A stretch of 32,181 nucleotides of DNA from Novosphingobium sp. (GTDB taxonomy: Bacteria; Pseudomonadota; Alphaproteobacteria; Sphingomonadales; Sphingomonadaceae): assembly GCA_013141325.1 (NCBI GenBank), contig JABFRE010000271.1, positions 1 to 32,181 on the forward strand, read 5' to 3'. Shown here piece after piece: positions 14,313 to 32,181 of the stretch (positions are counted from its first letter, which is position 1; each line of letters starts with the position of its first letter). A model generated the notes under the pieces. The model was given only the letters and a program-made list of their open reading frames with translations. It ran no database searches and was not told where the DNA came from. The position numbers and the translations under genes were made by a program.

Positions 14313-14387
14313 TGGTGACCCCTACGGGAATCGAACCCGTGTTTCAGCCGTGAGAGGGCCGCGTCCTGACCGCTAGACGAAGGGGCC
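14313..14387 (-). tRNA. tRNA-Glu (CTC), CCA encoded
   Basis: Minus strand GGCCCCTTCGTCTAGCGGTCAGGACGCGGCCCTCTCACGGCTGAAACACGGGTTCGATTCCCGTAGGGGTCACCA; anticodon loop CTCTCAC, T-loop GGTTCGATTCC. Confidence 0.96.
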
Positions 14388-14415
14388 GAAAGTGAAACTG
14401 CCCCGGCATTCCGGT

Positions 14416-14491
14416 TGGTGACCCCTACGGGAATCGAACCCGTGTTTCAGCCGTGAAAGGGCCGCGTCCTAGGCCTCTAGACGAAGGGGCC
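14416..14491 (-). tRNA. tRNA-Glu (TTC), CCA encoded
   Basis: Minus strand GGCCCCTTCGTCTAGAGGCCTAGGACGCGGCCCTTTCACGGCTGAAACACGGGTTCGATTCCCGTAGGGGTCACCA; anticodon loop CTTTCAC. Confidence 0.96.
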
Positions 14492-29469: not shown

Positions 29470-31143
29470 CTAACCGGCACCCTCGTTCGCGGCGCTGAGC
29501 ACGGCCCGGACCGACGCAGTGGCGACGTCTTCGTCGATCCCCACACCCCAGACCGTCTTGCCACTTGGCGTTACGCATTCAACATAGGCCGCCGCGCGCG
29601 CGTCTGATCCAGCAGTCATCGCGTGCTCAGTGTAGTCCTTGATTTCAAGCGCAACCCCGAAGCTTTCAGCCAGGGTGGTGACCACCGAGCTGATCAGCCC
29701 GTTGCCGCGGCCCGAGACGGACTGTTCCTTGTCATCCACCGCGATCTTGCCGGCGAACATGCGGGTGCCGTCGGCGGCCTTCGATTCCTCGTAATCGAGC
29801 AACTGGAAGTGCTGGGGCGTGTTCAGGTGATAGACCCGCTGGAATACCTCCCAGATATCCTCGGCAAACAGTTCGCGGCCGGCCGAATCCGCCAGTTCCT
29901 GCACGTGCTTGGAAAAGTGCGCCTGCATCTTCTTGGGCAGTTTCAAGCCCTGGTCCTGTTCCAGCACCCAGGCGAACCCGCCTTTGCCGCTTTGCGAATT
30001 GACCCGGATCACCGCCTCGTAATCGCGGCCGAGGTCGGCGGGATCGATCGGCAGATAGGGCATTTCCCAGAGCGTATCGTTCTGCTTTTCCCGCGCGGCG
30101 AAGCCCTTCTTGATCGCGTCCTGATGGCTGCCCGAAAACGAGGTGTAGACCAGCTCGCCCACATAAGGGTGGCGCGGGTGGATCGGCAGCTGGTTGCAAT
30201 ATTCCACCGTCTTGGCGATCGCATCGATGTCCGAAAAATCTAGTCCCGGATCAATGCCTTGCGTGTACATGTTGAGGGCGACTGTAACCAGATCGCAGTT
30301 GCCGGTCCGCTCACCGTTGCCGAACAGGCAGCCTTCCACCCGGTCGCCCCCGGCCATCAGCCCCAGCTCGGCCGCAGCGATGCCGGTGCCGCGGTCGTTG
30401 TGGGTGTGAAGCGAGATCACCACCGCCTCGCGGTTGGGGATCATCCGGGCGAACAGTTCGACCTGATCGGCATAGATGTTGGGCGTGGCGCATTCCACGG
30501 TGGCCGGCAGGTTGAAGATGATCGGGTGCTCGGCGCTGGGCTGCAGCACGTCCATCACCGCCGCGCAGACCTCTACCGAGAAGTCGACTTCGGCGGTGGA
30601 GAAGGTCTCGGGTGAATATTCGAAGGTCCAGCGGGTGCCGGGGTGCTTCGCCGCCTGGTCACGCAGCACCTTCGCCCCGTCGATGGCGATGGCCTTGATC
30701 TCGTCCTTGCCCATTCCGAACACGATCTTGCGCCAAACGGGCGAGACTGCGTTGTAGAGGTGGACGATCGCGCTTTTCGCGCCTTCGAGGCTGGCAAAGC
30801 TGGTTTCGATCAGATCGCGGCGCGACTGGGTCAGCACCTGGACGGTCACGTCATCGGGGATCCGGTTGCCGCGCACCAGGCCCGAGATAAAGTCGAAATC
30901 CGTTGCGCCCGAGGCAGGAAAGCCGACTTCGATTTCCTTGACGCCGACCTTCAGCAGCAGATCGAAAAACCGATTCTTCTTTTCCGCACCCATCGGATCG
31001 ATCAGCGCCTGGTTACCATCGCGCAGATCGGTCGACAGCCAACGCGGTGGCTGGGTGATCTGGCGACCCGGCCATTGGCGATCGGGCAGGTTGATCGGCG
31101 GAAAGGGGCGGTACTTGGCCCCGGGGTTCTTCAGCATGGTCAT
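29470..31143 (-). CDS. leuA: 2-isopropylmalate synthase
   Basis: 557 aa; 'RQITQPPRWLSTDLRDGNQALIDPMGAEKKNRFFDLLLKVGVKEIEVGFPASGATDFDF', 'SLHTHNDRGTGIAAAELGLMAGGDRVEGCLFGNGERTGN', C-terminal LeuA_dimer region. Confidence 0.97.
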   Translation of the reverse strand: MTMLKNPGAKYRPFPPINLPDRQWPGRQITQPPRWLSTDLRDGNQALIDPMGAEKKNRFFDLLLKVGVKEIEVGFPASGATDFDFISGLVRGNRIPDDVTVQVLTQSRRDLIETSFASLEGAKSAIVHLYNAVSPVWRKIVFGMGKDEIKAIAIDGAKVLRDQAAKHPGTRWTFEYSPETFSTAEVDFSVEVCAAVMDVLQPSAEHPIIFNLPATVECATPNIYADQVELFARMIPNREAVVISLHTHNDRGTGIAAAELGLMAGGDRVEGCLFGNGERTGNCDLVTVALNMYTQGIDPGLDFSDIDAIAKTVEYCNQLPIHPRHPYVGELVYTSFSGSHQDAIKKGFAAREKQNDTLWEMPYLPIDPADLGRDYEAVIRVNSQSGKGGFAWVLEQDQGLKLPKKMQAHFSKHVQELADSAGRELFAEDIWEVFQRVYHLNTPQHFQLLDYEESKAADGTRMFAGKIAVDDKEQSVSGRGNGLISSVVTTLAESFGVALEIKDYTEHAMTAGSDARAAAYVECVTPSGKTVWGVGIDEDVATASVRAVLSAANEGAG

Positions 31144-31190
31144 AGCGGTGTCTCAGCGTGGCAGTGCGACTGGTCAGTGGTGTTCAGCTT

Positions 31191-31244
31191 CCCTTGGGCG
31201 GCGCTGTGTGCCGCTCAAAGGACACACCCGCTCACGCCCAAGGG
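31191..31244 (-). promoter_or_regulatory. leuA 5'-leader stem-loop (candidate attenuator)
   Basis: Perfect 10-bp inverted repeat CCCTTGGGCG (31191-31200) / CGCCCAAGGG (31235-31244) enclosing an inner GTGTG...CACAC hairpin. Confidence 0.65.
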
Positions 31245-31282
31245 CGGATAAGTCGCAGGGTAAGGCCAAGCCGGGAGATCAT
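31232..31282 (-). CDS. Candidate leu leader peptide (16 aa: MISRLGLTLRLIRPWA)
   Basis: ATG ATC TCC CGG CTT GGC CTT ACC CTG CGA CTT ATC CGC CCT TGG GCG TGA; four Leu codons within seven consecutive codons, immediately upstream of leuA; the last codons lie in the left arm of an inverted repeat. Confidence 0.65.
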   Translation of the reverse strand: MISRLGLTLRLIRPWA

Positions 31283-31335
31283 GGGTTCAGCCTATGCTGC
31301 CTTGCCGGTGGGTTGTAAAGGGGCAAGCCGCGCGT

Positions 31336-32181
31336 TCAGGCGCGGTCTTGCGTGCTTTGCTTGCCGCGCCAGCGCGCACTTTCGCCCGCCTGACGCTCGG
31401 CCCGGTCGGCATGGCAAGCGGCGCAGCACAGCCCGGCGACGTAGTGCGCAGACTGGCGCGCCACTTCGTCCAGCGGCCGCCCGCAGCCCTGGCAGGCTTC
31501 GAAGGTTCCGGGAACCAGACCGTGGCCGACGGTGACGCGTTCATCGAAAACGAAGCACTCGCCGCGCCACAGGCTGTTCTCAGCGGGCACTTCTTCGAGA
31601 TATTTGAGGATGCCGCCCTGCAGGTGATAGACCTCGCCCACCCCCTCGGCCTTGAGGAAGGCGGTCGATTTTTCGCAGCGGATCCCGCCGGTGCAGAACA
31701 TCGCCACCCTGGGCGGCGTTTCGCCGGCCAGCAGGCTCTCGCGATGGGCCCGGAACCAGGCGGGAAATTCGCGGAACGTGCGGGTTGCGGGGTTGATCGC
31801 TCCGGCGAAGGTTCCGGCGACCACTTCGTAGTCGTTGCGGGTGTCGATCACGATGGTTCCGGGAGCGGCGATCAGCGCGTTCCAATCCTCAGGCGCCACG
31901 TAGTGGCCGGTCGCCAGCGGATCGATGCCGGGCTCACCCATGGTTACGATCTCGGCCTTGATCCGCACTTTCATCCGGCGGAACGGCACGTCCGGCGCGC
32001 GCGAGTACTTAACCTCGGTGTCGCCGCAGCCAGGCAGATTGCGGATCGCGGCGACCACGGCGGCGATCCCCGCGTCACTTCCGGCAATGGTACCGTTGAT
32101 CCCTTCGCGGGCCAGCAGCAGCGTCCCCTTGATGGCCTGATCCTGGCACAGTGCGGCGAGATCGGCGCGGATTTCGGCAAG
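31336..32181 (-). CDS. trhO: Rhodanese-domain tRNA uridine hydroxylase TrhO/YceA-like (partial, N-terminus outside window)
   Basis: Frame stays open to the window end (LAEIRADLAALCQDQAIKGTLLLAREGINGTIAGSDAGIAAVVA...). 'MFCTGGIRCEKSTAFLKAEGVGEVYHLQGGILKYLE', Cys-rich C-terminus 'CQGCGRPL...CCAAC'. Confidence 0.93.
   Translation of the reverse strand, partial: LAEIRADLAALCQDQAIKGTLLLAREGINGTIAGSDAGIAAVVAAIRNLPGCGDTEVKYSRAPDVPFRRMKVRIKAEIVTMGEPGIDPLATGHYVAPEDWNALIAAPGTIVIDTRNDYEVVAGTFAGAINPATRTFREFPAWFRAHRESLLAGETPPRVAMFCTGGIRCEKSTAFLKAEGVGEVYHLQGGILKYLEEVPAENSLWRGECFVFDERVTVGHGLVPGTFEACQGCGRPLDEVARQSAHYVAGLCCAACHADRAERQAGESARWRGKQSTQDRA

Follow-up and report, generated by a model that had tools for sequence, protein, structure and literature searches.

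The reaction encoded by leuA commits carbon to leucine. In Escherichia coli, the leader leuL (Rfam Leu_leader) has 28 residues and includes 4 Leu. In Actinobacteria, the LEU element consists of a leader ORF with a run of Leu codons, a base stem in which these codons pair with the Shine-Dalgarno sequence of leuA, and a conserved pseudoknot, and it contains no terminator (Seliverstov et al., 2005; PMC1262725). For Streptomyces, the leader LeuL1 of leuA, MRFGLLLLSCRGEGL*, has been reported to be leaderless and to have no typical terminator (PMC8079986). The Caulobacter ilv leader controls genes for branched-chain amino acids and is described as an attenuator that acts via a Rho-independent terminator (PMC4117421). 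In Sinorhizobium meliloti, the trpL leader ORF begins at the 5′ end of the RNA, and the trpE attenuator to which it belongs releases an sRNA (PMC10117765).

In this study, we describe a conserved leader in front of leuA in Novosphingobium sp. and compare it with these systems. The window, that is, the whole stretch of 32,181 nucleotides that was analysed, carries a 16-codon ORF 5′ of leuA (Table 1), and the product of leuA matches TIGR00970 with 807 bits, which places it in the yeast-type class of 2-isopropylmalate synthases. The gene 5′ of the leader, which looks like a gene for a rhodanese-domain protein, ends at 31336, and 53 nt remain for a promoter. A sequence-only reading of the window had drawn attention to the short ORF and its Leu codons (CTT, CTT, CTG and CTT), to the perfect 10-bp inverted repeat at the end of the ORF and to the pairing of TGCGACT with AGTCGCA, and all of these are present as it described them. 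The same reading took the two stems to be mutually exclusive. However, the TGCGACT/AGTCGCA helix (P0) encloses the 10-bp hairpin (P1) and both coexist in the predicted fold, and on account of this nesting mutual exclusion of P0 and P1 was rejected. Class-wide conservation of the ORF, its reading frame, the promoter, the hairpin and the Leu codons strongly supports the proposal of a leucine attenuator, but the picture of two competing stems is not supported. The evidence points instead to a ribosome that would compete with one long structure reaching the leuA ribosome-binding site. Because the single-sequence fold of the window leader is not significantly better than that of shuffles (z -1.8 and -0.8), the case for the leader rests on comparison.

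Table 1. Positions in the window of the leader, its predicted RNA structure and leuA.
Feature	Position	Strand	Basis
-35 element TTTACA (CTTTACA in relatives)	31314..31319	-	Conserved spacing to CATAGG
-10 element CATAGG	31291..31296	-	Conservation; spacing suggests a transcription start a few nt from the leader ATG
Leader peptide ORF MISRLGLTLRLIRPWA*	31232..31282	-	Kept in 78/80 leuA loci; frame 56/56
Putative regulatory Leu codons CTT GGC CTT ACC CTG CGA CTT; core CTNCGACTTA (CTT 31270-31268, CTT 31264-31262, CTG 31258-31256, CTT 31252-31250)	31250..31270	-	
TGCGACT of the Leu codons, 5′ strand of P0	31251..31257	-	Complements AGTCGCA 31171-31165
Hairpin P1 5′ arm CCCTTGGGCG, within the ORF end	31235..31244	-	Covariation
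Hairpin P1 3′ arm CGCCCAAGGG	31191..31200	-	Covariation
AGTCGCA, 3′ strand of outer helix P0	31165..31171	-	Predicted pairing; cognate-versus-swapped test
GAG, likely leuA Shine-Dalgarno sequence	31152..31154	-	Duplex prediction extends P0 to GAG
leuA, 2-isopropylmalate synthase, yeast-type class (TIGR00970)	29470..31143	-	

The regions 5′ of leuA were compared at 80 loci from Novosphingobium, Qipengyuania/Erythrobacter, Sphingomonas, Stakelama and Croceicoccus. The conservation in relatives on which the earlier proposal depended was found: the ORF and its Leu codons are kept at 78 of these loci, the exceptions being one locus at an assembly gap and one divergent locus. The ORFs of the relatives end in L-R-L-x-R-P or a close variant, which is mostly followed by W-A-stop. 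At all of the 56 loci checked, the first ATG past the -10 element opens a stop-free stretch in the same frame as the invariant last CTT; the distances from this ATG to the CTT are 30, 33, 36, 39 or 42, and the distances from the promoter to the CTT cover all frames. This conservation of the frame suggests that the leader ORF is translated. The promoter, CTTTACA-N17-CATAGG, has a 17-nt spacer in 37 of 40 dereplicated relatives, a count in which the -10 element played no part in selecting the promoters. Moreover, the -35 element was detected at 57 of the 78 loci and lies 35-38 nt 5′ of the leader ATG in nearly all of these. Because of this constant geometry, transcription is predicted to start at the leader ATG or a few nt before it, in a leaderless-like manner. 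In one Novosphingobium group, approximately 20-55 additional nt with GC-rich repeats are found between P1 and leuA.

The codons of the leader differ from those of leuA. The rare codons CTT and CTA account for 62 of the 130 Leu codons of the leaders (48%), a count that leaves out the invariant CTT, whereas leuA has 143 of 1922 (7%), which gives an odds ratio of 11 (p=4e-31). CGA, which is fixed in the leader core, represents 27 of the 1470 Arg codons of leuA (2%). In the dereplicated set, the residue preceding the last CTT is Arg in 69 cases and Leu in 6, with no other residue observed. In addition, the conservation of the leader extends to third codon positions and runs on into the stem.

Across 51 class-wide sequences, 97.3% of the cells of P1 and its inner helix are paired, and two-sided changes occur in 9 of 12 pairs over the whole of P1 and the inner helix and in 5 of 8 pairs of P1. 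This covariation was matched by none of 500 shuffles, slid partners score far lower, and the signal is also seen with 84 sequences. Elsewhere in the class, the stem mostly contains the stop codon of the leader (CCCCTGAGCG/CGYTCAGGGG). In the window lineage, TGA has become TGG, the other arm has changed in compensation, and the peptide has been extended to RPWA. Judging from these alignments, the RNA pairing of P1 is conserved at the cost of the end of the leader peptide. No U-run follows P1, the mean in sphingomonads being 1.22 T per 9 nt against 1.51 expected, and a terminator scan of the window found none at P1. An intrinsic terminator at P1 was rejected because the T content 3′ of the hairpin is at or near background, as had been supposed from the window alone. 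With the 5′ arm of P1 masked, pairing becomes possible between UCCUUUG.GCGGC and GCCGC.CAAGGG (window 31221-31191, minus strand), and the loop-to-3′-arm duplex of this alternative stem (P2) beats shuffled loops in sphingomonads (p=1e-9). As a class-wide feature, P2 was rejected because it is weakly conserved and has no support beyond sphingomonads.

The sequence of P0 varies among species, and P0 was kept outside the column-covariation scoring because it has no single conserved sequence. In the predicted fold of the window, it reaches toward the leuA ribosome-binding site. At 75 loci dereplicated at 75% identity, the cognate partner gives the duplex between the leader and the downstream region an advantage of 3.5 kcal/mol over a swapped partner (p=3e-6), and own leaders beat shuffled leaders by 4.7 kcal/mol (p=9e-12). 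When the pairing is limited to the 18 nt preceding leuA, the Shine-Dalgarno segment, the cognate partner is 1.25 kcal/mol better (p=1e-4). These swap and shuffle tests, like the shuffles of P1, correct for relatedness only in part. In the Shine-Dalgarno region of the window (-14 to -5), the predicted unpaired fraction is 0.22 in free RNA and 0.70 when a ribosome occupies the last CTT. Over 77 sphingomonad loci, the corresponding means for the leuA start region are 0.446 free and 0.526 stalled, which is a modest difference, and at 31 other loci the values of 0.416 and 0.435 reveal no clear effect, the leuA starts in other orders having been chosen by a heuristic. This modest average masking counts against a translational output.

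The leader element is not specific to sphingomonads and is found across Alphaproteobacteria. Two covariance models, whose E-values are rough, were used. R1 matched 184 of the 301 genomes of the order, once per genome and nearly always within one family, and R2 matched 89 of the 290 genomes of the class. In the phylum sample, R2 matched 43 of 249 genomes, all 43 within Alphaproteobacteria, and no sampled genome outside that class had a match to the leader model. Among the newly fetched R1 and R2 sites, 57 of 59 precede leuA; two weak R2 matches do not lie before leuA. The leader stands in front of both enzyme classes of LeuA. In the class-I sample of 52 genomes, 31 carry R2, in each case 69-430 nt upstream of the class-I gene and on its strand. 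Within the order, the distance to the class-II gene downstream is 55-85 nt for 29 of 30 compared sites, the LeuA coordinates of the 30th genome being absent from the list compared. Class-II leuA loci of other orders that were found by protein have related leaders in about 24 of 27 cases as judged by eye, in forms such as CTNCGACTTANNGGCCCGG..., LRLTAPAC*, LLRLTGPAL* and LLLLTRPTS*. The leaders of such loci have the CTNCGACTTA core with a different short hairpin that holds the stop codon in its loop, are often far from the leuA start and were missed by R2; at several of these loci, the distance from the leader to the matched LeuA start is approximately 170-315 nt, reaching about 315 nt when counted from the leader stop codon. 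Because R2 missed these diverged leaders, its tallies are lower bounds. Three Sphingomonadaceae loci with class-I LeuA (L290, L292, L293) bear the same leader as the class-II loci of the 80-locus sample (L001-L080). Because these loci share the leader across enzyme classes, the class of LeuA appears to have been exchanged beneath a retained leader in this family. Leu-rich ORFs were also observed 5′ of class-II leuA in Cupriavidus, in Ralstonia and on pSymB of Sinorhizobium meliloti, with the ends LLLSLPIGCRA*, PLSLRLPTGCQ.. and LLLLGLIRGCRVR*, respectively, and these ORFs may be leaders of additional types in Rhizobiaceae and Betaproteobacteria.

We believe, with a probability of roughly 0.7, that the leuA leader is a leucine-responsive, ribosome-mediated attenuator with a translational output. 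The RNA would begin at the leader ATG or a few bases ahead of it. When leucyl-tRNA is plentiful, the ribosome would complete the leader peptide and depart, and the RNA would adopt one long structure in which P1 forms on the last leader codons and is enclosed by P0. In P0, the Leu codons would be paired with the stretch preceding leuA, including the Shine-Dalgarno region, and little translation of leuA would follow. Under a shortage of leucyl-tRNA, the ribosome would stall on the Leu codons, among them the rare CTT and the CGA-CTT pair, and would thereby cover the 5′ strand of each helix, P0 as well as P1, and leave the leuA start open. We infer the stalling of the ribosome, the direction of control, and translation rather than Rho-dependent termination as the output. 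The lack of a terminator, the species-matched pairing and the accessibility of the Shine-Dalgarno region favour translation attenuation without proving it.

The same leucine-sensing leader could instead have a transcriptional output, in which the position of the ribosome would set a Rho-dependent (or hairpin-pause) stop of RNA polymerase before leuA. Classical Gram-negative leucine operon attenuators act on transcription (PMC6123439), and the alternative stem to P1 in the window has some support in sphingomonads. Furthermore, the large distance between leader and leuA at several class-II loci of other orders is better suited to a transcriptional output, and Rho-dependent output is possible especially where the leader is far from leuA. 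However, P1 is not followed by a U-run, the alternative stem has no class-wide support, and a purely transcriptional switch leaves the species-matched pairing between the leader and the leuA start unexplained. We consider a transcriptional output unlikely, although it is the likeliest of the alternatives.

Stalling at the Leu codons is also to be preferred to a reading in which the peptide itself would be the sensor, its conserved Arg-Leu ... Pro end stalling the ribosome on free leucine or another ligand in the manner of TnaC, which has a C-terminal Arg-Pro and whose arrest responds to tryptophan. The near invariance of CGA-CTT and the (R/x)-Pro-stop ends of many relatives would agree with such a sensor. 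However, several orders have Leu in place of the Arg (LLLLIRP*, LLLLSCP*), the residue preceding the Pro varies, and the conservation of third codon positions and of the adjoining stem does not match a constraint on the peptide. In the window lineage, moreover, Pro-stop has become Pro-Trp-Ala-stop with the RNA pairing retained. Because the pairing was retained while the peptide end changed, nascent-peptide arrest is disfavoured, and we regard it as quite improbable. Least probable of all is a reading in which the Leu-rich ORF is incidental and P1, which has the best support among the structural parts, serves mRNA stability or structure, since the frame is conserved at 56 of 56 loci, rare Leu codons are enriched in the leader, and the linkage to leuA of two enzyme classes is near-exclusive.

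A conserved leader that spans a large part of the class is a target for annotation, and no leucine-sensing RNA for alphaproteobacterial leuA was found in Rfam or in the literature searched. For many environmental and plant-associated bacteria, the leader predicts a step under the control of leucine, and it provides a natural test of the way in which codon choice (CGA-CTT and the rare CTT and CTA) tunes attenuation that is free of a terminator. Its presence over both LeuA classes suggests a regulatory RNA that has outlived the exchange of the enzyme it controls. We put forward tentatively, and with considerable doubt, the broader idea of a class-wide leucine switch with a slow codon pair as its sensor, in which the near-invariant CGA-CUU would be an intrinsic brake on the ribosome that sharpens the response of the rare Leu codon after it and the leader would have been kept across the exchange of LeuA classes.

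The Rfam search suggested by the sequence-only reading gave no leader family for the window or for 11 loci of other taxa, with nothing relevant when the region was tested to E 5, and no match was obtained in Pfam and NCBIfam with the leader peptides. Elsewhere in the window, Rfam tRNA matches mark two adjacent tRNA genes (14316-14491, minus strand). The literature searched yielded the trp, trpS and ilv leaders and not an alphaproteobacterial leuA leader, which the surveys of Vitreschak (2004) and Lopatovskaya (2010) may mention, and the priority of its description is uncertain.

Compared with the known systems, the leader resembles the enterobacterial Leu_leader in that a short peptide with Leu codons is encoded ahead of leuA, but it has no U-run terminator and no Rfam match. 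The Caulobacter ilv leader likewise encodes a leader peptide and attenuates branched-chain amino acid genes in an alphaproteobacterium, whereas it is described as having a Rho-independent terminator and concerns a different gene and different codons. The trpL leader of S. meliloti shares a leader ORF that starts at the 5′ end of the RNA, but it belongs to a tryptophan system in which trpE is attenuated and the attenuator is released as an sRNA. Mutations in the Streptomyces leuA leader did not behave as in classical attenuation, according to a passage of PMC1262725 that cites earlier work, and by analogy this result may be read as a warning for the present model. In contrast to the LEU element, the alphaproteobacterial version has a CGACTTA core, and its hairpin holds the leader's own stop codon, except in the window lineage. 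Nevertheless, both have a Leu-rich leader ORF directly before leuA and no obvious terminator. The fold and duplex predictions for the window pair the Leu codons with the leuA Shine-Dalgarno sequence, a pairing to which the statistics over 75 loci add. Some alphaproteobacterial leaders (LLLLLSCP*) resemble those of the LEU element, the actinobacterial ones being compared by description. The best reading by analogy is that the alphaproteobacterial leuA leader would work like the actinobacterial LEU element.
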